Source of the DNA: Streptomyces sclerotialus
Lineage (GTDB): Bacteria; Actinomycetota; Actinomycetes; Streptomycetales; Streptomycetaceae
DNA length: 64,000 bases
Assembly (NCBI RefSeq): GCF_040907265.1
Contig: NZ_JBFOHP010000002.1
Span: forward strand, 5,084,001-5,148,000
Reading direction: 5' to 3'
The notes under the pieces were generated by a model that had not been told where the DNA came from, ran no database searches, and worked only from the letters and a program-made list of their open reading frames with translations. How positions within the stretch are numbered: position 1 is the stretch's first letter; the number at the start of each line of letters is the position of its first letter. Of the stretch, positions 8,464 through 36,862 are shown one piece after another. Made by a program: the position numbers and the translations under genes.

Positions 8464-8481
8464 ATCTACGCGCGTTACGAT
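8464..8481 (+). promoter_or_regulatory. Nucleoside-regulon operator before the BMP-ABC operon
   Basis: ATCTACGCGCGTTACG matches the palindrome found before deoA, add, deoC and the PNP gene in this window; the left half is perfect, the right half degenerate. Its right end overlaps TACGAT (8476-8481), a -10-like hexamer, with TTTATC 16 bp upstream as a weak -35. Binding here would block transcription of the transporter operon. Confidence 0.65.
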
Positions 8482-8531
8482 GCGGCGGAATCAGCGCCGT
8501 AGGAGGCGCTACGAGTCGAAGGGGACCCCTC

Positions 8532-9566
8532 GTGCGCCGGGTAACCAAGATCGCTTCCGCGGGTATAGCCTCCGCGGCCCTCGCTCTCTCGCTGACCGCA
8601 TGCGGTGAATCCTCCACGGAGGCCGCGGGCAAGGACAAGGGTGTCGGCCTCGCTTTCGATGTCGGCGGCCGGGACGACCACTCGTTCAACGAGGCGGCGG
8701 CCCGCGGCACCGACAAGGCCGAAAAGGAGCTGGGCGTGAAGTCCAAGCTCATGACCGCCAAGAACGGCGAGACGGAGGCCGACCGCGAGCAGCGGCTCAC
8801 CTCCCTCGCCGAGGCCGGCTTCAACCCCGTCATCGGCGTCGGCTTCAATTACGGCAACTCCGTCAACAAGGTCGCCAAGGAGTTCCCCAAGACCACCTTC
8901 GCGGTGGTGGACGCCACCTCCAGCGCCAAGAACGTCTACGGCATCAACTTCTCCGAGAACGAGGGCTCCTACCTCGCCGGCGTGGCCGCCGCGCTGAAGA
9001 CCGAGTCCAAGAAGGTCGGCTTCATCGGCGGCGTGAACAACGCGCTGATCCAGAAGTTCCAGGCCGGCTTCGAGAAGGGCGTCAAGGACACCGACCCCAA
9101 GGTCAAGGTCACGGCGCAGTACCTCTACGCCAACGACGACAAGGGCTTCAACGACCCGGCCGCCGCCAAGGGCAAGGCCAAGGGCATGCTCGACAACGGC
9201 AACGACGTCATCTACACCGCCGCCGGCCAGTCCGGCGCCGGTTCGATCGAGGTGGTCGCCGGCAAGAAGGGCGCCTGGGCCATCGGCGTGGACTCCGACC
9301 AGTACGCACAGCCCGGCCTGGCCAAGTACAAGGACCACATCCTCACCTCCGTCGTGAAGAACGTCGACGTGGCGGTCTACGACGTGATCAAGAGCGTCAA
9401 GGACGGCAAGCCGCTGTCCGGCACCGTCCACCTCACGCTCAAGCAGGACGGCGTCAAGCTCGCCACCTCCGGCGGTTACATCGACGACATCCAGGACGAG
9501 CTCGACGCGGCGAAGAAGAAGATCGTCGACGGGGACGTCAAGATCCCCGAGACGCCCGCCAAGTAA
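8532..9566 (+). CDS. BMP-family nucleoside-binding lipoprotein of ABC transporter
   Basis: A 344-residue PnrA/BMP-type periplasmic-fold lipoprotein. The signal peptide ends in the lipobox LTAC with Cys24 as lipid anchor. Family motifs: VGLAFDVGGRDDHSFNEAA near the N-terminus, GVGFNYGNSV, FAVVDATS, NVYGINFSENEGSYLAG and GFIGGVNN. It binds purine or pyrimidine nucleosides outside the membrane and delivers them to the permeases encoded just downstream. GTG start with GAAGGGGA (8518-8525) upstream. A hairpin after the stop probably reduces read-through, giving more binding protein than transporter. Confidence 0.92.
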   Translation: MRRVTKIASAGIASAALALSLTACGESSTEAAGKDKGVGLAFDVGGRDDHSFNEAAARGTDKAEKELGVKSKLMTAKNGETEADREQRLTSLAEAGFNPVIGVGFNYGNSVNKVAKEFPKTTFAVVDATSSAKNVYGINFSENEGSYLAGVAAALKTESKKVGFIGGVNNALIQKFQAGFEKGVKDTDPKVKVTAQYLYANDDKGFNDPAAAKGKAKGMLDNGNDVIYTAAGQSGAGSIEVVAGKKGAWAIGVDSDQYAQPGLAKYKDHILTSVVKNVDVAVYDVIKSVKDGKPLSGTVHLTLKQDGVKLATSGGYIDDIQDELDAAKKKIVDGDVKIPETPAK

Positions 9567-9577
9567 GAGCCGGTCAG

Positions 9578-9628
9578 AGGCTCCACGAGCCTGGTCCGAG
9601 GGCGGGGCCTCCCGGCCGCCCCGCCCTC
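9578..9628 (+). terminator. Intercistronic hairpins (attenuator) after the BMP gene
   Basis: Two stem-loops in the 94-bp gap: AGGCTC-CAC-GAGCCT (9578-9592), and a perfect 10-bp stem GAGGGCGGGG (9598-9607)/CCCCGCCCTC (9619-9628) with an 11-nt loop. No T-run follows, so partial termination or mRNA stabilisation of the binding-protein cistron is more likely than full termination. Confidence 0.6.
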
Positions 9629-9660
9629 CCTCTTCACCTTCTCCTCCAGGAGAGTGCGCC

Positions 9661-11259
9661 ATCACAGCGTCCAGCAGCCCCCCGGCGGGGCGGGCCCCCG
9701 CCGCGGCCCCCGCCGTCGAACTCCGCGGCATCACCAAGCGGTTCCCCGGCGTCGTCGCCAACCACGACATCGACATCACCGTCCGGCGCGGCTCCGTGCA
9801 CGCCCTGGTCGGCGAGAACGGCGCGGGCAAGTCCACCCTGATGAAGATCCTCTACGGCATGCAGAAGCCGGACGAGGGCACCATCGCCATCGACGGCGAG
9901 CAGGTGAGCTTCGCGACCCCCGCCGACGCCATCGCCCGCGGCATCGGCATGGTGCACCAGCACTTCATGCTCGCCGACAACCTCACCGTCCTGGAGAACA
10001 TCGTCCTGGGCGCCGAGAAGCTGCACGGCATCGGCGCGGCGGCCCGCGCGGCCGTCCTGGCGGTCTCCGACCGGTACGGCCTCAACGTACGCCCCGACGT
10101 GCTGGTCGAGGACCTGGGCGTCGCCGACCGGCAGCGCGTGGAGATCCTCAAGGTCCTCTACCGCGGCGCCCGTACGCTCATCCTCGACGAGCCGACGGCC
10201 GTGCTGGTCCCGCAGGAGGTCGACGCGCTCTTCGACAACCTGCGCGAGCTCAAGGCCGAGGGCCTGACCGTCCTCTTCATCTCGCACAAGCTGGGCGAGG
10301 TCCTCTCCGTCGCCGACGACATCACCGTCATCCGGCGCGGCACGACCGTCGCCTCCGTGGCGCCCGCGGAGACCACCCCCAAGCAGCTCGCCGAGCTGAT
10401 GGTCGGCAGCGAACTGCCCTCCCCGGAGACCCGCGAGTCCACCGTCACCGACACCCCCATGCTGACGGTCGACGGGCTGCACCTGAGCGCCACCGACCCC
10501 GACGGCGTCGTGCGCGCGGTCCTGGACGGCATCGGCTTCACCATCCACAAGGGCGAGGTCCTGGGCATCGCGGGCGTGGAGGGCAACGGCCAGGCCGAAC
10601 TGGTCGAGGCCATCATGGGCATGCGCGACCCGGACGGCGGCACCATCACCCTGGACGGCGCCGACATCAGCCACGCGCCCACCCGCAAGCGGCGCGAGGA
10701 CGGCATCGGGTACGTCCCCGAGGACCGGCACCGGCACGGCCTGCTGCTGGAGGCCCCGCTCTGGGAGAACCGCATCCTCGGCCACGTCACCGAGAAGCCC
10801 AACTCCAGGGGCCGGCTGCTGGACCTCAAGGCGGCCCGCGCCGACACCGAGCGGATCGTCACCGAGTACGACGTCCGCACCCCCGGCATCGAGGTCACCG
10901 CGGCCTCGCTCTCCGGCGGCAACCAGCAGAAGCTGATCGTCGGCCGCGAGATGAGCCACCACCCCAAGCTGCTGATCGCGGCGCACCCCACGCGCGGCGT
11001 GGACGTCGGCGCTCAGGCGCAGATCTGGGACCAGATCCGCGAGGCCCGCCGCGAGGGCCTGGCCGTACTGCTGATCTCCGCGGACCTGGACGAGCTGATC
11101 GGCCTGTCCGACACCCTGCGGGTGATGTACCGGGGCCGGCTGGTCGCGGACGCCGACCCCGCCACCGTCACCCCCGAGGAGTTGGGCTCGGCCATGACCG
11201 GCGCCGCCAGCGGCCACCTGGAGCACGTCGAGGACGGGGAAGGGGGTGACCGGGAGTGA
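9661..11259 (+). CDS. Nucleoside ABC transporter ATP-binding protein (apparent ATC start)
   Basis: A 532-residue tandem ATPase of the ribose/galactose (RbsA/YufO) type. Domain 1 has Walker A GENGAGKST and Walker B LILDEPTA. Domain 2 has a degenerate P-loop (GVEGNGQAE), the signature LSGGNQQK and LLIAAHPTRGVDVG. Normal family length is reached only if translation begins at ATC 9661, placed 8 nt after AGGAG (9648-9652) and reading ITASSSPPAGRAPAAA; no ATG, GTG, TTG or CTG is in frame before GTG 9796. Starting at 9796 would remove about 45 residues, including the first beta-strand and the FPGVVAN adenine-loop region. Its stop overlaps the next start (GTGA). Confidence 0.88.
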   Translation: MTASSSPPAGRAPAAAPAVELRGITKRFPGVVANHDIDITVRRGSVHALVGENGAGKSTLMKILYGMQKPDEGTIAIDGEQVSFATPADAIARGIGMVHQHFMLADNLTVLENIVLGAEKLHGIGAAARAAVLAVSDRYGLNVRPDVLVEDLGVADRQRVEILKVLYRGARTLILDEPTAVLVPQEVDALFDNLRELKAEGLTVLFISHKLGEVLSVADDITVIRRGTTVASVAPAETTPKQLAELMVGSELPSPETRESTVTDTPMLTVDGLHLSATDPDGVVRAVLDGIGFTIHKGEVLGIAGVEGNGQAELVEAIMGMRDPDGGTITLDGADISHAPTRKRREDGIGYVPEDRHRHGLLLEAPLWENRILGHVTEKPNSRGRLLDLKAARADTERIVTEYDVRTPGIEVTAASLSGGNQQKLIVGREMSHHPKLLIAAHPTRGVDVGAQAQIWDQIREARREGLAVLLISADLDELIGLSDTLRVMYRGRLVADADPATVTPEELGSAMTGAASGHLEHVEDGEGGDRE

Positions 11260-12362
11260 AGAAGATCGACCGTACGAAGCTGACCCTGGGCATCGCGGCG
11301 CCGCTCCTCGCCATCGTCGCGGCCCTGCTCATCACCTCGGTGATCATCCTGGCCACCGGCAAGGACCCGATCCACGCCTACACCGTGATGGTGGACTTCG
11401 GCTCCAAGAGCGACAGCCAGGTCTGGATCATCAACAAGGCGGTGCCGTACTACCTCTCCGCGCTGGCCGTGGCCATCGGCTTCCGGATGAACCTCTTCAA
11501 CATCGGCGTGGACGGCCAGTACCGCATCGCGGCCTTCTTCGCCGCGGTCGTCGGCGGCGCGCTCACCCTCCCCGGCTTCCTCCAGATCCCGCTGATCGTC
11601 ATCGTGGCGATGCTGGTCGGCTCGGTCTGGGCGGGCATCGCGGGCGTACTGAAGACCACCCGCGGGGTCAGCGAGGTCATCACGACCATCATGCTGAACT
11701 CCATCGCGGCCGCCGTCATCGGCTACTTCCTCCAGGAAGGCCGGCTCGCGGTGAAGGACGGCAACCTCTTCCACACCCCGGACCTGCCGGCCTCCAGCCA
11801 CTTCTTCACCATCCCGACCCAGCCGGACCCGCTCGACGGCTTCCTCGTCGTCGCGGCCGTCGCCGGCGTCGCGTACTGGTTCGTCCTCGGCCGCACCCGC
11901 TTCGGGTTCGACCTGCGGACCGTCGGCCGGTCGGAGTCCGCGGCCCAGGCGGGCGGCGTCAGCGTCAAGCGCATGGTCGTCACGTCCATGCTGCTGTCCG
12001 GCGCCGCCGCGGGCCTGATCGGCATGCCGACGCTGCTCGGCGTCTCGTACAACTACGGCACCGACTTCCCCGTCGGCATCGGCTTCACCGGCATCGCCAT
12101 CGCGCTGCTCGGCCGCAACCACCCCCTCGGCATGGCCGCCGGCGCGCTGCTGTGGGGCTTCCTGGAACGCACCGGCACCCAGCTGGAGTTCGAGGACTAC
12201 GAGCAGGAGATCGTCGGCGTGATGCAGGGCGTCATCGTCCTGTGCGTCGTCATCGCCTACGAGGTCGTACGCCGTTACGGCCTGCGGATCCAGCAGCGCA
12301 AGGTCGGCGAGGAACTCGCCGCGCAGGCCCGCAAGACCGACAAGGCGGAGGTGTCCGCGTGA
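11256..12362 (+). CDS. Nucleoside ABC transporter permease 1
   Basis: A 368-residue inner-membrane permease (BPD_transp_2 family) with about 8-10 hydrophobic segments. The conserved FNIGVDGQYRIAAF and GVSEVITTIMLNSIA motifs are those of the YufP-type subunit. It forms the membrane channel with the next gene product, driven by the preceding ATPase. The GTG overlaps the ATPase stop by 4 nt (GTGA), and its own stop overlaps the next GTG in the same way, so all three are translationally coupled. Confidence 0.9.
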   Translation: MKKIDRTKLTLGIAAPLLAIVAALLITSVIILATGKDPIHAYTVMVDFGSKSDSQVWIINKAVPYYLSALAVAIGFRMNLFNIGVDGQYRIAAFFAAVVGGALTLPGFLQIPLIVIVAMLVGSVWAGIAGVLKTTRGVSEVITTIMLNSIAAAVIGYFLQEGRLAVKDGNLFHTPDLPASSHFFTIPTQPDPLDGFLVVAAVAGVAYWFVLGRTRFGFDLRTVGRSESAAQAGGVSVKRMVVTSMLLSGAAAGLIGMPTLLGVSYNYGTDFPVGIGFTGIAIALLGRNHPLGMAAGALLWGFLERTGTQLEFEDYEQEIVGVMQGVIVLCVVIAYEVVRRYGLRIQQRKVGEELAAQARKTDKAEVSA

Positions 12363-13654
12363 GCCAGAACCTCACGGCCCCGGCCACGAAGGACCCCGGC
12401 GGCAACGGCGGCAGACTCGCCGCGGCGCGCGCGAAGCTGACCTACCCCAGGGTCCTGCTGATCATCGCGGGCTCCCTCGTCCTGCTCTCGCTCCTGCGCG
12501 TCGTCACCGGCGCCACCGACCTCACCGGCTCCGGCCAGTACACCGCGGCCCTCAACGCCGCCGTGCCGATCGGCCTCGCGGGCCTCGGCGGCCTGTGGGC
12601 GGAGCGCTCCGGCGTGATCAACATCGGCCTCGAAGGCATGATGATGCTCGGTGCGTTCTCGGCCGGCTGGGTCGGCTGGGAGTACGGGCCCTGGGCGGCG
12701 GCGCTGGCCGGCGTCATCGGCGGCGCGCTCGGCGGCCTCATCCACGCCGTCGCCACCGTCACCTTCGGCGTCGACCACATCATCTCCGGTGTCGCCGTCA
12801 ACATCATGGCGCTGGGCCTCACCCAGTTCCTGGCCAAGCTGTGGTTCGGCGCCGAGGGCAGCGCGGCGGCGCAGGCGGGCGGCAACGACAAGCAGTCCCC
12901 GCCGATGGACGACATGCCGACCTTCACGGTCCCCGGCCTCTCCGACTGGCTGCTGTCCCTCGAGAAGCACCACTGGTTCCTGGTCTCCGACCTGGCCGGC
13001 ATCCTCGGCTCGCTGGTCACCCACGTCTCCTGGCTGACCGTGGTCACCGCCGCCGTCTTCGCGCTCAGCTTCTTCGTCCTGTGGCGCTCGTCCTTCGGGC
13101 TGCGCCTGCGGTCCTGCGGCGAGAGCCCGGTCGCGGCCGAGTCGCTGGGCGTCAACGTCTACACGTACAAGTACGCGGCGGTGGTCGTCTCCGGCGCGCT
13201 GGCCGGCCTCGGCGGCGCGTTCCTCGCCATCTACGTGCACATCTACCAGGACGGCCAGACCGGCGGCCGCGGCTACATCGGCCTCGCCACCATGATCTTC
13301 GGCAACTGGCGGCCCGGCGGCGTCGCCATGGGCGCGGGCCTCTTCGGCTTCATGGACGCCTTCCAGCTCCGCGGCGGCGGCGAGACCGTGCACGCGCTGC
13401 TGCTCCTGCTCGCGGTGCTGCTGGTCGGCCTGGCGATCTGGAAGCTGCGCGGCGGCCACCGCGTCCAGGGCACCGCCAGCATCGTCGTCGCCGCCCTGCT
13501 CGCCCTCTGGTACGCCACGACCGACACGGTCCCGCTGGAAATCGTCTCCGTGGCGCCGTACATCGCTACGCTGCTGGTCCTGTCGCTGGCCGCCCAGCGG
13601 CTACGGGCACCGAAAGCCATCGGCAAGGCGTACCGAAGGGGTCAGGGCACGTGA
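12359..13654 (+). CDS. Nucleoside ABC transporter permease 2
   Basis: A 431-residue YufQ-type permease. After a soluble N-terminus of about 35 residues come multiple membrane segments, with GVINIGLEGMMMLGAFSAG and VDHIISGVAVNIMALGL as family motifs. Start is GTG overlapping the previous stop by 4 nt; a much longer upstream extension in this frame runs across permease 1 and is an artefact of high GC. It is followed 37 bp later by cytidine deaminase, coupling uptake to the first pyrimidine salvage step. Confidence 0.9.
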   Translation: MSQNLTAPATKDPGGNGGRLAAARAKLTYPRVLLIIAGSLVLLSLLRVVTGATDLTGSGQYTAALNAAVPIGLAGLGGLWAERSGVINIGLEGMMMLGAFSAGWVGWEYGPWAAALAGVIGGALGGLIHAVATVTFGVDHIISGVAVNIMALGLTQFLAKLWFGAEGSAAAQAGGNDKQSPPMDDMPTFTVPGLSDWLLSLEKHHWFLVSDLAGILGSLVTHVSWLTVVTAAVFALSFFVLWRSSFGLRLRSCGESPVAAESLGVNVYTYKYAAVVVSGALAGLGGAFLAIYVHIYQDGQTGGRGYIGLATMIFGNWRPGGVAMGAGLFGFMDAFQLRGGGETVHALLLLLAVLLVGLAIWKLRGGHRVQGTASIVVAALLALWYATTDTVPLEIVSVAPYIATLLVLSLAAQRLRAPKAIGKAYRRGQGT

Positions 13655-13691
13655 CGAACGAGGTCTGCGGAACCCGAGGGGGCCGGCGCAC

Positions 13692-14087
13692 GTGACCGAA
13701 GCTCCCGACTGGGAGAAGCTGCGCGAGCGGGCCCGGGACGCGATGTCCCGGGCCTACGCGCCCTACTCCGGCTACCCCGTCGGTGCGGCGGCCCTCGTGG
13801 ACGACGGCCGCACCGTCACCGGCTGCAACGTGGAGAACGCCTCCTACGGCCTCGGCCTGTGCGCCGAATGCGGCCTGGTCTCCGAGCTGTTCGCGACCGG
13901 CGGCGGCCGGCTCACCGCGTTCGCGTGCGTGGACCGGCACGGCAAGGTCCTGATCCCCTGCGGCCGCTGCCGCCAGCTCCTGTACGAACACGGCGGCCCC
14001 GACCTCCTCATCGACACGGAAGCCGGCATCCGCCCCCTGACCGCCCTCCTCCCGGACGCCTTCGGCCCGGAACACCTGTCCCGCTAG
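13692..14087 (+). CDS. cdd: Cytidine deaminase
   Basis: A 131-residue zinc enzyme converting cytidine and deoxycytidine to uridine and deoxyuridine. YAPYSGYPVGAA, the substrate motif GCNVENASYG, the catalytic CAECG (Cys-Ala-Glu; usual form is HAE/CAE) and the second zinc motif PCGRCRQ are all present, and the length is standard for the homotetrameric class. GTG start with GAGGGGG upstream. It is the last gene of the transporter operon; the deoA gene further on has its own operator. Confidence 0.95.
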   Translation: MTEAPDWEKLRERARDAMSRAYAPYSGYPVGAAALVDDGRTVTGCNVENASYGLGLCAECGLVSELFATGGGRLTAFACVDRHGKVLIPCGRCRQLLYEHGGPDLLIDTEAGIRPLTALLPDAFGPEHLSR

Positions 14088-14143
14088 ACGTGTCGTCCGG
14101 CGGCGCCCTGCAGCATCGGGCTGCGGGCTGCGGGGGCGGTGGC

Positions 14144-14641
14144 TCACCAGTACATGGGCTCGGGCTCCTCCCACTCGTCCAGCGGTGCCAGTTCGCCGCG
14201 CAGCCGCACGTCCCGCATCCGGACGACCAGCGCCTGCGTCTCGACGAGCCGCTGGTGGTACTCCGGGAGTTCACGTGGGGACGGGCGCACATCACACATG
14301 CTCAGCAGTTCCTGAGCCACCGCGTCCCCCGGCTCCCTCGTGGGCTCGGAGATCACGGCACGTCCCGATGCCACGATCTGCCAGCTCCATCCCTCGCCTC
14401 CCCGGGACATGTGCAGCCGGTCGTCCGCCCGCAGCGACTCGAGAAAGGGATAGTCGGCCCACAGCCCGATCCGCACGGTCCGGGTGGCGGGCTCCCAGTG
14501 GTACGTCCGGAGCCCCCGCGGATCGGTGCTGCCGGGGGTGTAGAGCCCTCCCCACCGCAACGGGGTGCCCAGCCACTTCGTCATTTCGCCGTCCGTCAGG
14601 GGCCGGGGCCCGTCGCCGTACTTCACCCGATCCGGCAGCAC
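14144..14641 (-). CDS. Hypothetical protein
   Basis: A 165-residue soluble protein that I cannot place with confidence. It is rich in Trp, Arg and Pro, ends EEPEPMYW, and a segment TYHWEPATRTVRIGLWADYP followed by EGWSWQIVASGRAVI vaguely recalls an FMN-binding split barrel, which is only a guess. It is well supported as a gene: GAAGGAGGA (14655-14647) lies 5 nt before a GTG, and codon bias is normal. It lies 30 bp downstream of the Cys-rich small gene on the same strand, so the two may form an operon. Confidence 0.65.
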   Translation of the reverse strand: MLPDRVKYGDGPRPLTDGEMTKWLGTPLRWGGLYTPGSTDPRGLRTYHWEPATRTVRIGLWADYPFLESLRADDRLHMSRGGEGWSWQIVASGRAVISEPTREPGDAVAQELLSMCDVRPSPRELPEYHQRLVETQALVVRMRDVRLRGELAPLDEWEEPEPMYW

Positions 14642-14671
14642 GCTGATCCTCCTTCGTTCCGGGCCGGGCTT

Positions 14672-14851
14672 TCAGTTCCCGACGTCGCGGTGCCACAGGT
14701 CGATGGTCGAGGCCTGTCCGCGGGAGCAGCCGCGCGGACAGGCGCGGCAACAGGAGGTCGCACAGCCGCAGGCACAGAGACGGCCGTGGTACATGCACAT
14801 CGCGCAGGTGGCGCAGCGGTCCTGGTAAGGACATGAGCAGGAGTGGTCCAT
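14672..14851 (-). CDS. Cys-rich 59-residue small protein
   Basis: A 60-codon frame starting MDHSCSCPYQDRC with GGAGAG about 10 nt upstream. It contains 12 cysteines among its first 42 residues (positions 5, 7, 13, 16, 19, 26, 28, 30, 34, 35, 38, 42), in CxC, CxxC and CC spacings, plus two histidines, then a short Cys-free tail. That composition suggests a small metal-binding or metallothionein-like protein, or a structural zinc or Fe-S protein; no signal peptide is seen. It is read in tandem with the hypothetical gene at 14144-14641 and away from deoA. Function unknown. Confidence 0.65.
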   Translation of the reverse strand: MDHSCSCPYQDRCATCAMCMYHGRLCACGCATSCCRACPRGCSRGQASTIDLWHRDVGN

Positions 14852-14922
14852 GGGGGCATTCTCTCCAACTGACGTTCGGCAGGCGCCCGTAATGCCCAGA
14901 CCGGGGTTGTCGCCTGAAGCCC

Positions 14923-14952
14923 TTCACGACCGTTCTTCTATGCGTGTAGAAC
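14923..14952 (+). promoter_or_regulatory. Nucleoside-regulon operator and promoter of deoA
   Basis: TTCTATGCGTGTAGAA (14936-14951) is a near-perfect palindrome of the regulon type, with C to T changes at the sixth and tenth positions. A plausible promoter overlaps it: TTCACG (14923-14928), an 18-bp spacer, then TAGAAC (14947-14952). The operator covers the spacer and the -10 box. Confidence 0.7.
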
Positions 14953-14979
14953 GGAGTCGTTCCCGTAGAAAGGAAGCCG

Positions 14980-16257
14980 ATGGACGCCATCTCCGTCATC
15001 CGCGCCAAGCGCGACCGCGCCGAACTGACCGACGACCAGATCGACTGGATCATCGACGCGTACACCCGCGGCGAGGTCGCACACGAGCAGATGTCGTCCC
15101 TGGCCATGGCGATCCTCCTCAACGGCATGAACCGCAAGGAGATCGCCCGCTGGACCGCCGCGATGATCGACAGCGGCGAGCGGATGGACTTCTCCTCCCT
15201 CACCCGGCCCACCGCCGACAAGCACTCCACCGGCGGCGTCGGCGACAAGATCACCCTGCCGCTGGCCCCCCTGGTCGCCGCGTGCGGCGCCGCCGTGCCC
15301 CAGCTCTCCGGCCGCGGCCTCGGCCACACCGGCGGCACCCTCGACAAGCTGGAGGCCATCCCCGGCTGGCGCGCCGACCTCTCCAACGACGAGATGCTGG
15401 CCATTCTCGGGGACGTCGGCTCCGTCATCTGCGCGGCGGGCGCGGGGCTCGCCCCCGCCGACAAGAAGCTCTACGCGCTCCGCGACGTGACGGGCACCGT
15501 CGAGTCGATCCCCCTGATCGCCTCCTCCATCATGTCCAAGAAGATCGCCGAGGGCACCGGCTCCCTCGTCCTGGACGTCAAGGTCGGCTCCGGCGCCTTC
15601 ATGAAGAACCTCGACGACGCCCGCGAACTCGCCGCCACCATGGTCGAGCTCGGCACCGACCACGGCGTACGCACCACGGCCCTGCTCACCGACATGGCCA
15701 CCCCCCTCGGCCTGACCGCGGGCAACGCCCTGGAGGTCCGCGAATCCGTCGAGGTGCTGGCCGGCGGCGGCCCCGCCGACGTGGTCGAGCTGACCCTCGC
15801 GCTGGCCCGCGAGATGCTCACCGCGGCCGGCCTCCCCGACGCCGACCCGGCCAAGGCGCTCGCCGACGGCTCCGCGATGGACCACTGGCGCCGCATGATC
15901 CAGGCCCAGGGCGGCGACCCCGACGCGCCCCTCCCCGTCGCCCGCGAGCAGCACATCGTGAACGCCGCCACGTCCGGCGTCCTCACCACCCTCGACGCGT
16001 ACGCCGTCGGCCTGGCCGCCTGGCGCCTGGGCGCGGGCCGCGCCCGCAAGGAGGACCCCGTACAGGCGGGCGCCGGCGTGGAACTGCATGCCAAGCCCGG
16101 TGACGAGGTGCGAGCGGGGGAGCCCCTGCTCACCCTGCACACCGACACCCCGGAGAAGTTCGCGTCCGCCATCGAGGCCCTGGACGGCGGCGTACTGATC
16201 GCCCCGTCCGGTACGGACTTCACCCCGGACCCGATCGTCCTGGACCGCATCGCGTAA
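14980..16257 (+). CDS. deoA: Thymidine phosphorylase (pyrimidine-nucleoside phosphorylase)
   Basis: A 425-residue homodimeric enzyme that cleaves thymidine/deoxyuridine (and perhaps uridine) with phosphate to base plus (deoxy)ribose-1-phosphate. The glycosyltransferase family 3 signature SGRGLGHTGGTLDKLE, the phosphate loop KHSTGGVGDK and the DVKVGSGAFMK motif are present; the C-terminal domain (about residues 340-425) is complete. ATG is preceded by GAAAGGAAG. Transcribed in the same direction as cdd but from its own operator-controlled promoter. Confidence 0.95.
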   Translation: MDAISVIRAKRDRAELTDDQIDWIIDAYTRGEVAHEQMSSLAMAILLNGMNRKEIARWTAAMIDSGERMDFSSLTRPTADKHSTGGVGDKITLPLAPLVAACGAAVPQLSGRGLGHTGGTLDKLEAIPGWRADLSNDEMLAILGDVGSVICAAGAGLAPADKKLYALRDVTGTVESIPLIASSIMSKKIAEGTGSLVLDVKVGSGAFMKNLDDARELAATMVELGTDHGVRTTALLTDMATPLGLTAGNALEVRESVEVLAGGGPADVVELTLALAREMLTAAGLPDADPAKALADGSAMDHWRRMIQAQGGDPDAPLPVAREQHIVNAATSGVLTTLDAYAVGLAAWRLGAGRARKEDPVQAGAGVELHAKPGDEVRAGEPLLTLHTDTPEKFASAIEALDGGVLIAPSGTDFTPDPIVLDRIA

Positions 16258-16273
16258 CCCCTCGGGGCGGACG

Positions 16274-21211: not shown

Positions 21212-21235
21212 TTCTACGCGCGTAGGGGCTACAGT
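21212..21235 (+). promoter_or_regulatory. Nucleoside-regulon operator and leaderless promoter of add
   Basis: TTCTACGCGCGTAGGG (21212-21227) carries the regulon core CTACGCGCGTAG perfectly. TACAGT (21230-21235) follows directly and ends 6 nt before the add ATG, so the operator occupies the spacer of a leaderless promoter. Confidence 0.75.
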
Positions 21236-21241: not shown

Positions 21242-22378
21242 ATGACGAGCGAGACCACCAACCTCCCGACCGCACAGCAGATCCGCCGCGCGCCGAAGGT
21301 GCTGCTCCACGATCACCTCGACGGCGGTCTGCGTCCCGCCACGATCGTCGACCTCGCCCGCGAGACCGGGTACGACGGCCTCCCCGAGACGGACCCGGAG
21401 AAGCTCGGCATCTGGTTCCGCGAGGCCGCCGACTCGGGCTCGCTGGAACGCTATCTGGAGACCTTCGCGCACACCTGCGCCGTCATGCAGACCCGCGACG
21501 CGCTGGCCAGGGTGGCCGCCGAGTGCGCCGAGGACCTGGCCGCCGACGGCGTCGTCTACGCCGAGGTCCGGTACGCGCCGGAGCAGCACCTGGAGAAGGG
21601 GCTCAGCCTCGAAGAGGTCGTCGAGGCGGTCAACGAGGGGTTCCGGGAGGGCGAGCGGCGGGCGCGCGCCCACGGCCACCGCATCCGCGTCGGTGCGCTG
21701 CTCACCGCGATGCGGCACGCGGCCCGCGCCCTGGAGATCGCCGAACTGGCCAACCGCTACCGCGACCTCGGCGTGGTCGGCTTCGACATCGCGGGCGCCG
21801 AGGCGGGCTACCCGCCCACCCGTCACCTGGACGCCTTCGAGTACCTCAAGCGCGAGAACAACCACTTCACGATCCACGCGGGCGAGGCGTTCGGGCTGCC
21901 GTCGATCTGGCAGGCGCTCCAGTGGTGCGGTGCCGACCGGCTCGGCCACGGCGTGCGGATCATCGACGACATCCGGGTCGACGACAGCGGCGAGGTGAAG
22001 CTCGGCCGGCTGGCGTCGTACGTACGGGACAAGCGCATCCCGCTCGAGATGTGCCCGACCTCGAACCTGCAGACCGGCGCGGCCAGTTCCTACGCCGAGC
22101 ACCCGATCGGGCTGCTGCGGCGGCTGCAGTTCCGTCTGACCGTCAACACCGACAACCGGCTCATGTCCGGGACGAGCATGTCGCGCGAGTTCGAGCACCT
22201 GGTGGAGACGTTCCGGTACACGTTCGACGACATGCAGTGGTTCACCGTCAATGGAATGAAGAGCGCCTTCCTTCCTTTTGATGAACGTCTGGCCATGATC
22301 AACGATGTGATCAAGCCCGGTTACGCCGAACTGAAGTCGGAATGGCTCTTCCCGAAGGGGCCCGCGGACTCGGTGTGA
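21242..22378 (+). CDS. add: Adenosine deaminase
   Basis: A 378-residue zinc TIM-barrel enzyme converting adenosine and deoxyadenosine to inosine and deoxyinosine. Metal and catalytic residues are visible: H23 and H25 in [16 protein letters not shown] (His and catalytic Glu), DRLGHG, and the metal Asp in TVNTDNR. The ATG is chosen because the longer frame upstream would read through the operator and promoter. Products feed the PNP encoded at 36002-36823, under the same operator type. Confidence 0.96.
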
Positions 22379-29732: not shown

Positions 29733-29750
29733 CGGCCGGACGTACGACAG

Positions 29751-29787: not shown

Positions 29788-29828
29788 TCCGGCGCGGTGC
29801 GGCGGGCTCGGACGCCCATCGGGTGGAC

Positions 29829-30695
29829 TCAGACGCCCATCGGGTGCCAGACCGTCTTGGTCTCCAGGTAGGCCAGCATGCGGTCGGTGCCGGGGTCGGC
29901 GGTCCAGTCCACAGCCTGTGGACGGTGGACGCGCTTGAGGTTGTCGGCGGCCGCCGTCTCCAGGGCGGTCGCCTCCTCCCGGTCACCGGCCACGCCCGCG
30001 AGGTCGATCGCGTTGACGTCCTGGTGCGCGGCCAGCGGCCCGGCGATCTCGGCCGTACGGCCCGACAGCACGTTCACCACGCCGCCGGGCAGGTCGGAGG
30101 TGGCCAGCACCTCGCCCAGCGACAGGGCAGGCAGCGGCGCCTTCTCGCTGGCCACCACCACGACGGTGTTACCGGTCACGATCGCCGGCGCGATCACCGA
30201 CACCAGCCCGAGGAACGAGGACTCCTGCGGCGCCAGGACGGCCACCACGCCGGTCGGCTCGGGCGTGGAGAGGTTGAAGAACGGGCCCGCGACCGGGTTC
30301 GCGCCGCCCGCGACCTGCGCGATCTTGTCGGACCATCCGGCGTACCAGACCCACCGGTCGATCGCCGCGTCCACCTGCGCCGCCGCCTTGGACTTCGACA
30401 GTCCCTCGGCGTCGGCCACCTCCGAGACGAACTGCTCCCGGCGGCCCTCCAGCATCTCGGCGATGCGGTACAGGATCTGGCCGCGGTTGTACGCGGTGGC
30501 ACCGGACCAGCCGCCGAACGCCTTGCGGGCGGCGACCACCGCGTCGCGCGCGTCCTTGCGGGAGGACAGCGGGGCGTTGGCGAGCCACTTGCCCTTTGCG
30601 TCGGTCACCTCGTACACCCGCCCGCTCTCGGACCGGGGGAACTTGCCCCCGACGTACAGCTTGTAGGTCTTGAAGACGCTCAGCCGATCAGACAT
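29829..30695 (-). CDS. Short aldehyde-dehydrogenase-family protein (no catalytic half)
   Basis: A 288-residue protein covering only the N-terminal NAD-binding part of the aldehyde dehydrogenase fold (YKLYVGGKFPRSESG, AYNRGQILYRIAEMLEGRRE, GVVAVLAPQESS, AIVTGNTVVVVASEKAPLPAL, LPGGVVNVLSGRTAE). The catalytic-Cys region and the canonical ELGGK motif are absent, so it is unlikely to be an active dehydrogenase alone. The full-length enzyme next to it overlaps it by 8 nt. The pair recalls the double-domain layout of animal ALDH16, and a heteromeric or regulatory role is inferred. Third gene of the deoC operon. Confidence 0.85.
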   Translation of the reverse strand: MSDRLSVFKTYKLYVGGKFPRSESGRVYEVTDAKGKWLANAPLSSRKDARDAVVAARKAFGGWSGATAYNRGQILYRIAEMLEGRREQFVSEVADAEGLSKSKAAAQVDAAIDRWVWYAGWSDKIAQVAGGANPVAGPFFNLSTPEPTGVVAVLAPQESSFLGLVSVIAPAIVTGNTVVVVASEKAPLPALSLGEVLATSDLPGGVVNVLSGRTAEIAGPLAAHQDVNAIDLAGVAGDREEATALETAAADNLKRVHRPQAVDWTADPGTDRMLAYLETKTVWHPMGV

Positions 30696-32118
30696 TCAGG
30701 TACGCCTCCAGACCGTGCCGGCCGCCCTCGCGGCCGAAGCCCGACTCCTTGTAGCCGCCGAACGGCGACGCCGGGTCGAACTTGTTGAACGTGTTGGACC
30801 AGACGACGCCCGCGCGCAGCTTGCCCGCCGTCCACAGGCTGCGGGAGCCCTTCTCGGTCCAGATGCCCGCCGACAGGCCGTACGGCGTGTTGTTCGCCTT
30901 GGCCACGGCCTCCTCGGGCGTACGGAACGTCAGCACGGACAGCACCGGGCCGAAGATCTCCTCGCGGGCGATGCGGTGCGCCTGCGTGACGCCGGTGAAC
31001 AGGGTCGGCGCGAACCAGTAGCCCTCGCCGGGCAGTTCGCAGGCCGGCGCCCAGCGCTCGGCGCCCTCGGCCTCGCCCGCGTCGGCCAGCGCCTTGATAC
31101 GGGCCAGCTGCTCGGCGGAGTTGATGGCGCCGATGTCGGTGTTCTTGTCCAGCGGGTCGCCGACGCGCAGGGACGCCATCCGGCGCTTGAGCGCGTCCAG
31201 CAGCTCGTCCTGGACCGACTCCTGCACCAGCAGCCGGGAGCCGGCGCAGCAGACGTGGCCCTGGTTGAAGAAGATGCCGTTGACGATGCCCTCGACGGCC
31301 TGGTCGAGCGGCGCGTCGTCGAAGACGATGTTCGCGGCCTTGCCGCCCAGCTCCAGGGTGAGCTTCTTGTCCGTGCCCGCGACCGTACGCGCGATGGCCT
31401 TGCCGACCTCGGTCGAGCCGGTGAAGGCGACCTTGTCGACGTCCGGGTGCGCGACCAGCTCGGCGCCGGTCGAGCCGTCGCCGGTCAGGATGTTGACGAC
31501 GCCCCTGGGCAGCCCGGCCTGGCGGCAGATGTCCGCGAAGAAGAGCGCGGAGAGCGGGGTGGTCTCGGCGGGCTTCAGGACGACGGTGTTGCCGCAGGCC
31601 AGCGCCGGGGCGATCTTCCACGCGAGCATCAGCAGGGGGAAGTTCCAGGGGATGACCTGGCCGGCGACGCCCAGCGGCTTCGGGTCGGTTCCGAGGCCCG
31701 CGTGGCCGAGCTTGTCGGCCCAGCCCGCGTAGTAGAAGAAGTGCGCGGCGACCAGTGGCAGGTCGGAGTCGCGGGACTCCTTGATCGGCTTGCCGTTGTC
31801 CAGCGACTCCAGCACCGCCAGCTCGCGCGAGCGCTCCTGGATGAGGCGGGCGATCCTGAAGAGGTACTTGGCGCGCTCGGCACCGGGCAGCGCCGACCAC
31901 TTCTCGAACGCCTTGCGCGCGGCCTTCACGGCGCGCTCGACGTCGGCGGCCCCGGCCTGCGCGACCTCGGAGAGGACCTCCTCGTTCGCCGGGGAGACGG
32001 TCTTGAAGACCTTGCCGTCGGCCGCGTCGGCGAACTCGCCGTCGATGAACAGCCCGTACGAGGGAGCGATGTCGACGACCGCGCGCGACTCCGGCGCGGG
32101 TGCGTATTCAAAAGCCAT
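30688..32118 (-). CDS. Aldehyde dehydrogenase of deoxyribose catabolism
   Basis: A 476-residue NAD-dependent aldehyde dehydrogenase with all catalytic elements: VIPWNFPLLML (Asn), VVLKPAETTPLSAL, FTGSTEVGK, general base Glu in LELGGKAANIV, nucleophile Cys in FFNQGHVCCAGSRLL and EEIFGPVLSV. In this operon it most likely oxidises acetaldehyde released by deoxyribose-phosphate aldolase to acetate (inference from context). ATG 32118 lies 2 bp after the deoC stop; a longer frame upstream through deoC is a GC artefact. Confidence 0.93.
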   Translation of the reverse strand: MAFEYAPAPESRAVVDIAPSYGLFIDGEFADAADGKVFKTVSPANEEVLSEVAQAGAADVERAVKAARKAFEKWSALPGAERAKYLFRIARLIQERSRELAVLESLDNGKPIKESRDSDLPLVAAHFFYYAGWADKLGHAGLGTDPKPLGVAGQVIPWNFPLLMLAWKIAPALACGNTVVLKPAETTPLSALFFADICRQAGLPRGVVNILTGDGSTGAELVAHPDVDKVAFTGSTEVGKAIARTVAGTDKKLTLELGGKAANIVFDDAPLDQAVEGIVNGIFFNQGHVCCAGSRLLVQESVQDELLDALKRRMASLRVGDPLDKNTDIGAINSAEQLARIKALADAGEAEGAERWAPACELPGEGYWFAPTLFTGVTQAHRIAREEIFGPVLSVLTFRTPEEAVAKANNTPYGLSAGIWTEKGSRSLWTAGKLRAGVVWSNTFNKFDPASPFGGYKESGFGREGGRHGLEAYLNV

Positions 32119-32120
32119 GG

Positions 32121-33116
32121 TCAGTCCACCGTCACGTAGTCGGGGCCGGAGTACCGGCCGCTGCTGAGCTTCTGGCGCTGCATCAGCAGGTCGTTGAGGA
32201 GGCTGGACGCGCCGAAGCGGAACCAGTCCGCGGTCAGCCACTCCTCGCCCAGCGTCTCGTTCACCATGACCAGGTACTTGATCGCGTCCTTGGACGTGCG
32301 GATGCCGCCGGCCGGCTTCACCCCGACCTGCACCCCGAGCCGGTCGTGGAAGTCGCGGACGGCCTCCAGCATCAGCAGGGTGACCGGGGGAGTGGCGTTG
32401 ACGCCGACCTTGCCGGTGGAGGTCTTGATGAAGTCGGCGCCCGCGAGCATCGCGAGCCAGGAGACGCGGCGGACGTTGTCGTAGGTCTGGAGTTCGCCGG
32501 TCTCGAAGATGACCTTGAGGTGCGCCGCGCTGCCGTCCTCGCGGACGCAGGCCTCCTTCACGGCCTTGATCTCCTCGAAGACCTCCAGGTACCGGCCGGC
32601 GAGGAACGCGCCCCGGTCGATCACCATGTCGATCTCGTCGGCGCCGGCCGCGACCGCGTCCCGGGTGTCGGCGAGCTTCACCGGCAGTGCCGCGCGGCCC
32701 GCGGGGAACGCGGTGGCCACGGAGGCGACATGGATGCCGGAGGCGCCGAGCGCCTCCTTGGCGGTCGCCACCATGTCCGGATACACGCAGATCGCGGCGA
32801 CCTTCGGCACCGTGCGGTCCGTGGGGTCGGGGTTGACGCCCTTGGCGCACAGGGCCCGGACCTTGCCCGGGGTGTCCGCTCCTTCGAGCGTCGTCAGGTC
32901 GATCATCGAGATGGCGAGGTCGATGGCGTACGCCTTCGCCGTGTTCTTGATCGAGCGGGTGCCGAGCGCGGCGGCGCGGGCTTGCAGCCCGACGGCGTCG
33001 ACGCCCGGGAGGCCGTGCAGGAAACGGCGGAGGGCCCGGTCGTCGGCGGTCACGTCCGCCATCGTCGCCAGACGCCCCGCGGCCTCTTTGCCGTATGCGG
33101 GAACAGTGGTGGGCAT
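32121..33116 (-). CDS. deoC: Deoxyribose-phosphate aldolase
   Basis: A 331-residue class I aldolase splitting 2-deoxyribose-5-phosphate to glyceraldehyde-3-phosphate and acetaldehyde. The Schiff-base Lys is in ADFIKTSTGKVG, with DEIDMVIDRGAFL and AVCVYPDM-type (AAICVYPDMV) motifs. It is of the longer, eukaryote-like DERA class, with an extra N-terminal region of about 75 residues. ATG 33116 is given; a GTG two codons upstream (33122) sits exactly 6 nt after a TATGCT -10, so a leaderless start there is equally possible. Upstream extension to 33158 would cross the operator. Confidence 0.93.
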   Translation of the reverse strand: MPTTVPAYGKEAAGRLATMADVTADDRALRRFLHGLPGVDAVGLQARAAALGTRSIKNTAKAYAIDLAISMIDLTTLEGADTPGKVRALCAKGVNPDPTDRTVPKVAAICVYPDMVATAKEALGASGIHVASVATAFPAGRAALPVKLADTRDAVAAGADEIDMVIDRGAFLAGRYLEVFEEIKAVKEACVREDGSAAHLKVIFETGELQTYDNVRRVSWLAMLAGADFIKTSTGKVGVNATPPVTLLMLEAVRDFHDRLGVQVGVKPAGGIRTSKDAIKYLVMVNETLGEEWLTADWFRFGASSLLNDLLMQRQKLSSGRYSGPDYVTVD

Positions 33117-33128
33117 GGTCACGAGGGG

Positions 33129-33149
33129 AGCATATCTACGCGCGTAGCG
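33129..33149 (-). promoter_or_regulatory. Nucleoside-regulon operator and -10 of the deoC operon
   Basis: ATCTACGCGCGTAGCG (33134-33149) with a perfect CTACGCGCGTAG core abuts TATGCT (minus strand, 33134-33129), the -10 box of deoC. Repressor binding would cover the spacer of this promoter. Confidence 0.75.
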
Positions 33150-33274
33150 GTGTGTCACCCCTCCAGATGCGGCCGGGGAATTCCGGGCGGAGCACCGGCC
33201 CCCCGGCCCGGCGGCCGGTCATCGATGCCGGACCGCAACGTCCGGATGCCGGACTCTCGGGCACAATCGCCGGT

Positions 33275-33892: not shown

Positions 33893-33997
33893 CGCAGGCA
33901 CGCGGTCGTGCCGGGGGAGCGACCACCGGCATCCGGGGCGGGCGGTGCGGCCCGGCGGCCGACCGCGGTGCCGTCGTGGCCGGCCGCGCAGTCCCCC

Positions 33998-34043
33998 GCG
34001 CCCCTGTAGGGGCGGGCCCGCAGGCCCGCGCCTACAGGGGCGC
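33998..34043. terminator. Bidirectional terminator
   Basis: A 20-bp stem with one G-G mismatch: GCGCCCCTGTAGG (33998-34010) with CCTACAGGGGCGC (34031-34043), extended by GCGGGCC/GGCCCGC around a CGCA loop. Lies between convergent genes. Confidence 0.9.
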
Positions 34044-34051
34044 CCCGAGGG

Positions 34052-35719
34052 TCAGAGACCCGCCGCGGCCGACAGGTCGGCCTTGATCGCGGCGAGCGCC
34101 GCGTCCGCCGTGCGGCGTGCCTCCGGGAGCGCGTCCCGCGAGGCGACCGGTACCACGGCCTCCAAGTAGCACTTCAGCTTCGGCTCCGTGCCGCTCGGGC
34201 GGACGACGACCCGGCCCGCTGTCACCTCGCCGGACCCGGACAGCGTGTACCGCAGGCCGTCGGTCGGCGGCAGCGACGCCGAGCCCTGCGACAGGTCCTC
34301 GGCCGAGGACACCGTGAGCCCGCCCAGCGCGGCCGGCGGCTGCGCGCGCAGCCGGCGCATCGCGTCGGAGATGACCGACAGGTCCTCGACGCGCACGGAG
34401 AGCTGGTCGGTGGCGTGCAGCCCGTGCTCGACCGCCAGGTCGTCCAGCAGGTCGGTCAGCGTCCGGCCGTCCCGCTTGAGGACGGCCGCGAGCTCGGTGA
34501 TCAGCAGCGCCGCCGTGATGCCGTCCTTGTCCCGCACCCCGGCCGGGTCCACCGCGTACCCCAGGGCCTCCTCGTACGCGTACCGCAGGCCGTCCACGCG
34601 GGCCAGCCACTTGAAGCCGGTCAGCGTCTCCGTGTACGGCAGACCGGCCGCGGCGGCGATCCGGGACAGCAGCGAGGAGGAGACGATCGTCGTGGCGACG
34701 GTGCCCCGTGCGCCCGAGCCGACCACGTGCGCGGCGAGCAGTGCGCCGACCTCGTCACCGCGCAGCATCCGCCAGCCCGCCGCCGTCTCCGGTGCCGGCA
34801 CGGCGACGGCGCAGCGGTCCGCGTCCGGGTCGTTGGCGACGACGATGTCGGGCTGCGCCGTCCGGGCCGTCTCGAAGGCCAGGTCCATCGCCCCGGGCTC
34901 CTCGGGGTTGGGGAACGCGACCGTCGGGAAGTCCGGGTCGGGCTCTGCCTGCTCGGCGACGACCACCGGCGCCGGGAACCCGGCCCGCTCGAACGCCGCG
35001 GTCAGGACGTCCCGGCCGACGCCGTGCATCGGCGTGTAGACGACGCGGGTGTCCCGCGGCGAGCCGGGCGTGAGGACCGCCTCCGTACGGGCCAGGTACG
35101 CCGCCAGGACGTCCTCGCCGAGTACGTCCCAGCCGCTCTCGGGGCGCGCCACCTCGGTCAGCGGGCCGACCGCGGCGATCCGGGACGCGATCTCGCCGTC
35201 GGCGGGCGGCACGATCTGCGAGCCGTCGCCGAGGTAGACCTTGTAGCCGTTGTCACGGGGCGGGTTGTGGCTGGCGGTGACCTCCACGCCGGCGACCGCG
35301 CCCAGGTGCCGGATCGCGAACGCGAGCACCGGGGTGGGCAGCGGGCGCGGCAGCAGCGCCGCCTTCAGGCCGGCGCCGGTCATGACGGCGGCGGTGTCCC
35401 GGGCGAAGTCGGCGCTCTTGTGGCGCGCGTCGTAGCCGATGACGACCAGGCCGCCGCCCTGGCCCTGGTCCTTGAGGTAGGCGGCCAGCCCGGCCGCGGC
35501 CCGGATGACGACGGCGCGGTTCATCCGCATCGGGCCCGCGCCCAGCTCGCCGCGGAGCCCCGCGGTGCCGAACTGCAGGGTGCCGGCGAACCGTTCGGCC
35601 AGCTCGTCGGTGTCCTCGGTCTCGATGAGCTTCGCCAGCTCTTCGCGGGTCTCCGGGTCGGGGTCCTCGGCCAGCCAGGCCTTCGCCCGGCCGGTCAGCT
35701 CCGCGGGGACGGTTGCCAC
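34052..35719 (-). CDS. PGM2-like phosphohexo/pentomutase
   Basis: A 555-residue alpha-D-phosphohexomutase. The phospho-Ser loop is TASHNPPRDNGYKVYLGDG, metal loop DPDADRCAV, sugar loop GDEVGALLA and phosphate-binding loop VRPSGTEPKLKCYLE. The DNGYKVY extension and GTLQFGTAGLRGELGAGPMRMN start are those of the PGM2 subgroup, which includes phosphopentomutases. Lying between the deoC operon and PNP, it may convert (deoxy)ribose-1-phosphate from PNP and DeoA to the 5-phosphate for DeoC; annotated phosphomannomutase activity is the alternative. GTG start with AGGAG about 7 nt upstream; no regulon operator precedes it. Confidence 0.85.
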   Translation of the reverse strand: MATVPAELTGRAKAWLAEDPDPETREELAKLIETEDTDELAERFAGTLQFGTAGLRGELGAGPMRMNRAVVIRAAAGLAAYLKDQGQGGGLVVIGYDARHKSADFARDTAAVMTGAGLKAALLPRPLPTPVLAFAIRHLGAVAGVEVTASHNPPRDNGYKVYLGDGSQIVPPADGEIASRIAAVGPLTEVARPESGWDVLGEDVLAAYLARTEAVLTPGSPRDTRVVYTPMHGVGRDVLTAAFERAGFPAPVVVAEQAEPDPDFPTVAFPNPEEPGAMDLAFETARTAQPDIVVANDPDADRCAVAVPAPETAAGWRMLRGDEVGALLAAHVVGSGARGTVATTIVSSSLLSRIAAAAGLPYTETLTGFKWLARVDGLRYAYEEALGYAVDPAGVRDKDGITAALLITELAAVLKRDGRTLTDLLDDLAVEHGLHATDQLSVRVEDLSVISDAMRRLRAQPPAALGGLTVSSAEDLSQGSASLPPTDGLRYTLSGSGEVTAGRVVVRPSGTEPKLKCYLEAVVPVASRDALPEARRTADAALAAIKADLSAAAGL

Positions 35720-36001
35720 GTGATGCTCCTGCCTGTGGGGTGCGTGAGGGGTGCCTGTAGGTGCGGTGCCGTGCGGTACGCGTACGGGACGGCGCTCGGG
35801 TGCCGGGGCACGGGAGGCCGCTGCGGTGCGGCAGCGGGCGGCCGCGGAGCCGCGCGTACGGTGCCGTACGGACGGGCCGGCGTACGCCGTGGTTCCCGCG
35901 CCCGCCCCGGCTCGTAACCCATACCCCGCGCCCGGCCCGGACGGCGGGAACCGGCCACCGGCCGGTTCCGTGCCGGGCCGCCGCGCGACGGACACCGGGG
36001 C

Positions 36002-36823
36002 TCAGATCTTGCTGAGCACCTGGCCGAGCAGGCTGCCCATGCGGGTCGCGGAGTCGCGGCCGGCCTGGAGCACCTCTTCGTGGTTGAGCGGCTCGCCGGT
36101 CATGCCCGCGGCGAGGTTGGTCACCAGGGACAGGCCGAGCACCTCGGCGCCCGCCTCACGTGCGGCGATGGCCTCCAGGACGGTGGACATGCCGACCAGG
36201 TCGGCACCGAGCGTGCGGATCATCCGGATCTCGGCGGGGGTCTCGTAGTGCGGCCCGGGGAACTGGGCGTAGACGCCCTCCTCCAGGGTCGGGTCGACCT
36301 CCTTGCACAGCGCGCGCAGCCGCGGCGAGTACAGGTCGGTCAGGTCGACGAAGTTCGCGCCGACGATCGGTGAGGTGGCGGTGAGGTTGAGGTGGTCGCT
36401 GATGAGGACCGGCTGGCCGGGACGCATGCCCTCGCGCAGGCCGCCGCAGCCGTTGGTGAGGACGACCGTCTTGCAGCCGGCGGCCACGGCGGTACGGACG
36501 CCGTGGGCGACGGCCGCCACTCCGCGGCCCTCGTAGTAATGCGTCCGGCCGAGGAAGACCAGTGCGCGCTTGTCGCCGAGGGCGTACGAGCGGATCTTGC
36601 CGCCGTGGCCCTCCACGGCCGGGGGCGGGAAGCCCGGCAGCTCGGTGACGAGGAATTCGTGCTCGGGCTCACCCAGCGCCTCGGCGGCCGGGGCCCAGCC
36701 CGAGCCCATGACCAGGGCAACGTCGTGGGTCTCGGCGCCGGTCAGCTCGCGCAGGCGGTCGGCGGCGTCGGTGGCGGCGGTACGCGGGTCGCTCGCCAGG
36801 TCCGGGGTAACAGATGCGTTCAC
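36002..36823 (-). CDS. Purine nucleoside phosphorylase
   Basis: A 273-residue trimeric-type [14 protein letters not shown] phosphate loop, [53 protein letters not shown] and NHEEVLQAG. It splits inosine, guanosine and deoxy forms with phosphate. Start taken as GTG 36823 ([12 protein letters not shown]): TACCCT (minus strand, 36836-36831) ends 7 nt before it, giving a leaderless promoter, whereas the longer frame to 36874 would translate the operator. Confidence 0.93.
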
Positions 36824-36830
36824 GCGGACG

Positions 36831-36862
36831 AGGGTAGCCGGTAATCGCCTACGCGCGTAGAT
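36831..36862 (-). promoter_or_regulatory. Nucleoside-regulon operator and promoter of the PNP gene
   Basis: GCCTACGCGCGTAGAT (36847-36862) has the perfect 12-bp core CTACGCGCGTAG. The -10 TACCCT lies 11 bp further down the minus strand, so the operator covers the -35 zone. Confidence 0.75.

Follow-up and report, generated by a model that had tools for sequence, protein, structure and literature searches.

A conserved palindrome in nucleoside-gene promoters of Streptomyces sclerotialus as the likely operator of an SCO4158-type LacI-family repressor of nucleic-acid scavenging and purine supply

Which regulator reads a palindrome that recurs in several nucleoside-gene promoters of one chromosomal stretch, and how far does its regulon extend? 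The question is raised by 64,000 nucleotides of Streptomyces sclerotialus DNA (the window; contig NZ_JBFOHP010000002.1, positions 5,084,001 to 5,148,000), in which a first-pass annotation had placed near-identical 16-bp palindromes at 8464, 14936, 21212, 33134 and 36847, in the promoters of bmp, deoA, add, deoC and PNP. All five palindromes are there, and the accompanying claim that the window holds no further full copy is correct. The 12-bp core CTACGCGCGTAG is exact at add (21214), deoC (33136) and PNP (36849), whereas it carries 2 mismatches at both deoA (14938) and bmp (8466), the bmp site being a weaker, asymmetric variant. When the window was searched with the 16-mer TTCTACGCGCGTAGAA, four of the five lay within 3 mismatches, compared with 0.10 expected, and none of 100 shuffles reached four. 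The exact core occurs three times in the 8,276,155-base genome, solely in the window, at the promoters of add, deoC and PNP. We consider it likely that the palindrome serves a LacI-family repressor orthologous to SCO4158 as its operator, and that it marks a regulon for nucleic-acid scavenging and purine supply that includes PNP, add, deoC and bmp. This reading is built on the sites, their conservation, the list of target genes, the co-distribution of sites and LacI protein, and a pairing of the two in a genome of another family (G133), from which we infer binding, repression and an effector.

The operators, given here without strand, sit close to predicted promoter elements. In front of add, the operator at 21212..21227 (TTCTACGCGCGTAGGG; core 21214-21225) is centred at -22 from the ATG at 21242 and is directly followed by TACAGT (21230..21235, plus strand; -12 to -7), the predicted -10 element, as read from the sequence, of a leaderless promoter. 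At PNP (36847..36862), the core (36849-36860, CTACGCGCGTAG) occupies positions -37 to -26 relative to the GTG at 36823; the -10 element predicted from column conservation over 80 loci is TACCCT (36831..36836, minus strand; -13 to -8), and the GTG start would double as the transcript start of a leaderless promoter. The deoC operator covers 33134..33149 (core 33136-33147, again CTACGCGCGTAG), that of deoA 14936..14951 (TTCTATGCGTGTAGAA), and that of bmp-ABC-cdd 8464..8479 (ATCTACGCGCGTTACG; core 8466-8477, CTACGCGCGTTA). The right half of the bmp site departs from the palindrome and runs into a -10-like TACGAT, judged by eye.

Conservation was assessed across Streptomyces, across the group taken to be Streptomycetaceae (the family), and in a sample of the class, in part with the 13-mer TCTACGCGCGTAG; below, G000 is the window's own genome, other G numbers are compared genomes and L numbers are fetched loci. 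Named Streptomyces relatives have PNP proteins up to 98-99% identical to that of the window. The exact core stands upstream of PNP in all 80 Streptomyces loci kept; in 79 of them it starts at -37 or -36, in the other at -125. An alignment of these loci anchored at the core showed an invariant T and G on its two sides (80/80), giving TCTACGCGCGTAGG, and conservation of the -10 columns T/A/C/C/C/T at 1.00/1.00/0.97/0.80/1.00/1.00. A second exact core lies 3.4-10.7 kb downstream of PNP, in the direction of deoC, in 63 of the 80 loci, some of the others being incomplete stretches, and among the places matched at up to 1 mismatch a site at or near the deoC start was found in 6 genomes. The 13-mer is present in 61/61 genomes of the genus and, among the matches listed, its copies mostly lie within tens of kilobases of one another. 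Family-wide, the exact core was found in 149 of 150 genomes; the sole genome without it, G362, has 1-mismatch sites at add and deoC and encodes the LacI protein (69% identity). In the class sample the exact 13-mer occurs in 36 of 296 genomes, comprising every one of the 31 genomes in the window's genus together with 5 of the 265 others. For the remaining promoters, 20 fetched stretches were compared. A site with up to 1 mismatch precedes add in all 18 genomes having this gene, centred at -22 in 13 of them, and the bmp variant CTACGCGCGTTA precedes all 13 bmp genes of 48-62% identity, with centres from -56 to -112; a fourteenth bmp gene, 30% identical, has other near-sites instead. The stretch before the ABC ATPase gene carries a site with no more than 1 mismatch in 11 of 14 cases; in the window, the gap between bmp and the ATPase gene holds none at up to 3 mismatches. 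The deoA site is patchy, being found at up to 2 mismatches in just 4 of 15 other genomes. Finally, a search of seven genomes belonging to five genera with the 13-mer yielded 83 forward and 79 reverse matches at up to 1 mismatch, compared with 14 and 16 for the reversed pattern; these counts include the cluster sites, and palindromic sites were counted on both strands for pattern and control alike.

The candidate regulator emerged from a survey of LacI-family genes in G000 (32 matches, 31 over the cut-off, 30 with loci). Among the 30 loci, L197 alone has, next to its start, a core with no more than 2 mismatches. This gene (G000:C2:4788867-4789889) lies directly downstream of glnR, about 0.3 Mb from the window, and thus could not have been seen in the first-pass annotation. 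Its upstream neighbour encodes GlnR (PF21695), and the LacI regulator downstream of glnR in S. coelicolor is SCO4158 according to the available passages of PMC9739823; the L197 protein is therefore the SCO4158 orthologue by gene order, a synteny assignment rather than one from comparison with the S. coelicolor sequence. The protein scores 56.5 bits for the LacI helix-turn-helix, over the cut-off, and matches CcpA, RbsR and PurR structures over most of its length, although these structure searches pointed to no particular ligand. It is present in all 61 sampled family genomes and in G362, and in the class sample all 31 genomes of the window's genus have both the protein and the exact 13-mer. 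All 35 homologues read, the candidate itself among them, share the recognition helix AGTSTAVVSYV, which occurs in none of the 29 other LacI proteins of G000 that were displayed. Being an even palindrome centred on CG (CTACGC/GCGTAG), the operator has the form described for 1173 of 1303 LacI-family regulators in the passages of PMC4052901 available to us. The LacI gene in G000 lies 8-9 kb from a 5'-nucleotidase site of the kind described below. A half-site, GCGTAGACT, stands a few bases before the start codon in 30 of 34 LacI upstream regions, where it overlaps the likely -10 element; autoregulatory sites are common in the LacI family (72% of cases; PMC4052901, same passages).

G133, a 5.4-Mb genome from another family, provides an independent pairing of protein and site. 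It holds two exact 13-mers. Between them is encoded the one LacI homologue of this genome at E<=1e-50, a protein with LacI and Peripla_BP domains and the same recognition helix at 44% identity overall. Both sites fall within 17.1 kb, for which uniform placement gives p ~4e-5, a value computed after the fact. The first site lies upstream of genes for a QueD-like protein (below the NCBIfam cut-off), a PfkB kinase, a radical SAM protein and an IMPDH-domain protein, and the LacI gene is followed by genes for a P450 and an adenosine deaminase-domain protein. This nucleoside-type cluster (L338:530-19750 and L339:1161-3697), with the same operator as in the window, apparently resembles a 7-deazapurine nucleoside cluster, judging by its predicted proteins. 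Among the other outside genomes with an exact 13-mer (G242, G212, G148 and G158), the one neighbouring protein inspected, in G158, showed no nucleoside link.

The first-pass annotation described a coherent regulon for nucleoside import and breakdown. Cross-species conservation bears out the coherence; the extent was drawn too small, and the implied restriction of the operator to five promoters does not hold, as other genomes carry it at many more. The predicted regulon looks larger: purine synthesis (purS), a purine-type permease and secreted nucleases and nucleotidases also seem to belong to it, as does a second adenosine deaminase in some species. From the matches listed, fourteen exact sites in family genomes were picked because they looked extra-cluster. 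Nine have the operator on the first codons of the second adenosine deaminase gene (MTATRV or MTTTRV; L141-L144, L146-L148, L151 and L152), one has it upstream of purS, and in the remaining four the neighbours are two related secreted proteins, an S8-type peptidase and a HAD-type hydrolase (names by eye). Extra-cluster places were then collected at up to 1 mismatch from six of the seven genomes (without G364), the own genome and four more, their flanking genes were clustered, and recurrence was re-counted with reference proteins among places that already matched, such that the numbers describe recurrence among matches and not the fraction of orthologues with a site. The recurrent targets were purS and an NCS2 permease (8 genomes each), a secreted 5'-nucleotidase, a 3'-nucleotidase-like protein and a carbon-nitrogen hydrolase (5 each), an HNH/GmrSD-type secreted nuclease (5, of which 4 are clear and the G362 match, 45% identical, is doubtful), an ExeM/NucH-like nuclease (4), an M23 peptidase (3), a HAD acid phosphatase (2) and an NCS1 permease (2). 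Of twelve one-mismatch places read in the own genome, six are at genes for purS, NCS2, the 5'-nucleotidase, the 3'-nucleotidase-like protein, the HNH-type nuclease and the acid phosphatase. The site overlies the first codons in the gene of the second adenosine deaminase and in that of the HNH-type nuclease, with centres at +12 and +16.

Several further arrangements were seen around these places. G012 and G378 have paired operators separated by about 14 bp in front of the 3'-nucleotidase-like gene, and G378 has another pair, with a separation of 24 bp, in front of the ExeM-like gene (L260, L315 and L321 for the pairs together), an arrangement that suggests cooperative binding. Exact sites also accompany secreted proteins without known function in three genomes (L149 and L153, with DDGHAEEAGNADWIIS in both, and L324), and TCTACGCGCGTGG sites accompany secreted PLD-domain proteins, possibly further nucleases, in two (L314:1813-2856 and L326:2003-3013). 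The M23 peptidase genes of the three genomes (L264, L283 and L298) share a TATACGCGCGTAGG site near -73. A GH25 secreted hydrolase gene and a divergent MarR-type gene have a common GTACGCGCGTAG site (L253:856-2474 and L309:877-2413), the MarR-type gene of L253 being the one covered by a family search.

In the mechanism that we propose, a LacI dimer would bind T-CTAC-GCGC-GTAG-A, in the operator form TCTACGCGCGTAGA. The sites would abut or overlap the -35, the spacer, the -10 or the start codon of leaderless or short-leader promoters, and binding in these places should exclude RNA polymerase; their scattered positions around the promoter fit a polymerase-blocking repressor, while they fit an activator poorly. 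The regulon under its control would comprise secreted nucleases, 5'- and 3'-nucleotidases, nucleobase permeases, BMP-ABC import, cdd, deoA, add, PNP, deoC and purSQ(L). The predicted control of purS together with the scavenging genes hints that the corepressor is a purine, either a base or a nucleoside. It might act as for E. coli PurR, and purine shortage would then turn on synthesis, scavenging and import together. Alternatively, a nucleoside may serve as inducer, as for CytR.

A number of observations weigh against this reading. In the own genome the exact core is found 3 times compared with 4 for the reversed-pattern control, and at up to 1 mismatch the counts per strand are 20 and 30, respectively; the significance of the sites therefore rests on position and conservation and not on their number. 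The other six of the twelve one-mismatch places read in that genome are at unrelated genes or inside frames, e.g., near rpoB and a peptide transporter gene, and two of the targets listed above, the M23 peptidase (3 genomes) and the GH25 hydrolase divergent from the MarR gene (2 genomes), have no obvious link to nucleic acids. The second G133 site lies inside a predicted reading frame. The LacI promoter itself offers no more than a half-site that differs from the core by 2-3 mismatches and could be just a -10 element; it is missing in G362, G357, G354 and G133, in the last perhaps because the start is misplaced. Fifteen genomes outside the family encode homologues of 41-44% identity, and with up to 7 candidates per genome scored, an exact site was found only in G133. 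G132, G399 and G405, with the same or nearly the same helix, showed no site at up to 1 mismatch in fetched stretches of up to 20 kb around the gene, and G132 has no exact 13-mer. Possible regulation of glnR by SCO4158 has been suggested instead, in the passages of PMC9739823 available to us. Around outside or paralogous LacI homologues, 17 stretches yielded one 1-mismatch site (L377) and no pattern.

The open-licence PMC passages on SCO4158 mention its abundance under phosphate limitation, list an ArgR-box match nearby and include it in a table of carbon-catabolite-affected regulators; they name no operator or target genes for it, and we found no recognisable paper on this operator in that literature. 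SCO4158 also reportedly figures in a 2012 paper on antibiotic pigments, known to us by its title.

The operator might belong to another conserved family regulator of a type outside our survey, its link to the LacI protein being coincidental. Our survey of G000 did cover LacI-family genes alone, the LacI gene has a weak autoregulatory site, and 1-mismatch sites lie in front of two other regulator genes, of the GntR (L211) and MarR (L253, L309) types. We nevertheless regard such a regulator as unlikely, since the operator has the even, CG-centred form, the recognition helix is identical family-wide and the LacI homologue of G133 lies between the two sites; moreover, the GntR-associated site does not recur in a second genome and the MarR-associated site is limited to two.

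The first-pass annotation had named a different candidate, the DeoR/GlpR-family regulator at 39187..40170 (plus strand; Pfam PF08220 and PF00455). Its gene is 2.3 kb from the PNP site, it is present in all seven family genomes tried, it has a 42% match in G148, which is among the five outside genomes carrying the exact 13-mer, and DeoR-family regulators of nucleoside genes are known in other bacteria. The distribution across genomes does not favour it: relatives 67-71% identical occur in G172 and G310, which have neither an exact 13-mer nor a LacI homologue at E<=1e-50, whereas G133 carries the site at a nucleoside-type cluster and yet has no DeoR-type match at E<=1e-40. No core at up to 2 mismatches was found upstream of the deoR-like gene, and the protein scores 72.3 bits on the NCBIfam model for E. 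coli-type DeoR, whose cut-off is 244. SCO4920 is presumably its S. coelicolor counterpart. The expression-network module of SCO4920 is described together with bldN and cvn9 genes, and the word "nucleoside" is absent from the paper (PMC3224704). Binding of the operator by this DeoR-type protein thus appears quite improbable. That the palindrome is a promoter element or a chance sequence of GC-rich DNA, as the running of its right half GTAG into the -10 hexamer at some promoters (by eye) and the own-genome counts might suggest, is hardly credible given an exact core before PNP in 80/80 loci and, in the own genome, at three promoters only, targets from one pathway, 162 matches against 30 for the control in seven genomes at up to 1 mismatch, and site centres varying from about -110 to +16 from start codons, a spread incompatible with a fixed promoter element. 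BldD boxes and further known Streptomyces boxes were considered and set aside.

The genes behind the five operators were assigned by family searches unless otherwise stated. On the plus strand, bmp (8532..9566; Pfam PF02608) encodes a BMP/PnrA-type nucleoside-binding lipoprotein and is followed by ABC ATPase and permease genes (9796..13695; open reading frames with approximate bounds, the Walker-type sequence of the ATPase being recognized by eye) and by the cytidine deaminase gene cdd (13692..14087; PF00383); the true ATPase start probably lies upstream of the called frame. The pyrimidine nucleoside phosphorylase gene deoA (14980..16257; PF00591, PF07831 and PF02885) and the adenosine deaminase gene add (21242..22378; PF00962) have the same orientation. 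The gap between cdd and deoA (14088-14979) is about 0.9 kb, while the start-to-start distances of relatives suggest roughly 0.1-0.2 kb, and this long gap may be the reason why deoA has its own operator here. On the minus strand lie the deoxyribose-phosphate aldolase gene deoC (32121..33158; NCBIfam TIGR00126, 174.1 bits against a cut-off of 117.3), an aldehyde dehydrogenase frame 3' of it that is overlong at its 5' end (30688..32850; best match TIGR01804, E 1.8e-145, below cut-off), and the purine nucleoside phosphorylase gene PNP (36002..36823; PF01048). A perfect palindrome, CTGCGCGCGCAG, at 34340-34351 corresponds to the core with 2 mismatches; it lies within a phosphomutase-like frame (34052-35995) and is probably due to chance.

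Among known systems, PurR of Enterobacteriales, Pasteurellales and Vibrionales is also a LacI-family protein and also controls purine genes in many scattered operons. The operator of PurR differs from that of the candidate, the candidate's 172.4 bits on the PurR model fall short of the NCBIfam equivalog cut-off of 501, and its predicted regulon adds secreted nucleases, nucleotidases and deoxynucleoside catabolism. CytR of E. coli, which acts with CRP, exemplifies LacI-family control of nucleoside transport and catabolism genes, but on its model the candidate reaches 157.9 bits against a cut-off of 436. In B. subtilis the PurR regulon joins purine synthesis with purine base transport under a regulator of unrelated fold, and we know of no secreted nucleases among its members. 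UriR of Corynebacterium likewise represents actinobacterial LacI-family control of nucleoside use; the candidate scores 119.5 bits on the UriR model (cut-off 550), and the UriR regulon is local while that of the candidate is dispersed. In the available passages of PMC4052901, UriR is named as a local nucleoside regulator and PurR orthologues are confined to three bacterial orders.

If the assignment is correct, it would provide a function, an operator and a target list for a regulator present in 61/61 sampled family genomes, would link the use of extracellular DNA and RNA, nucleoside breakdown and purine synthesis in organisms whose colonies recycle their own dead hyphae, and would offer a handle on nucleoside-type clusters equipped with this repressor and operator. 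More tentatively, and with somewhat less confidence than doubt, we suggest that the SCO4158-type LacI protein serves as a family-wide switch for nucleic-acid recycling, which may couple DNA and RNA from dying mycelium to purine supply, and that repressor and operator together were captured by the 7-deazapurine-like cluster of the other family. Production of such a compound there would then be tied to purine status.

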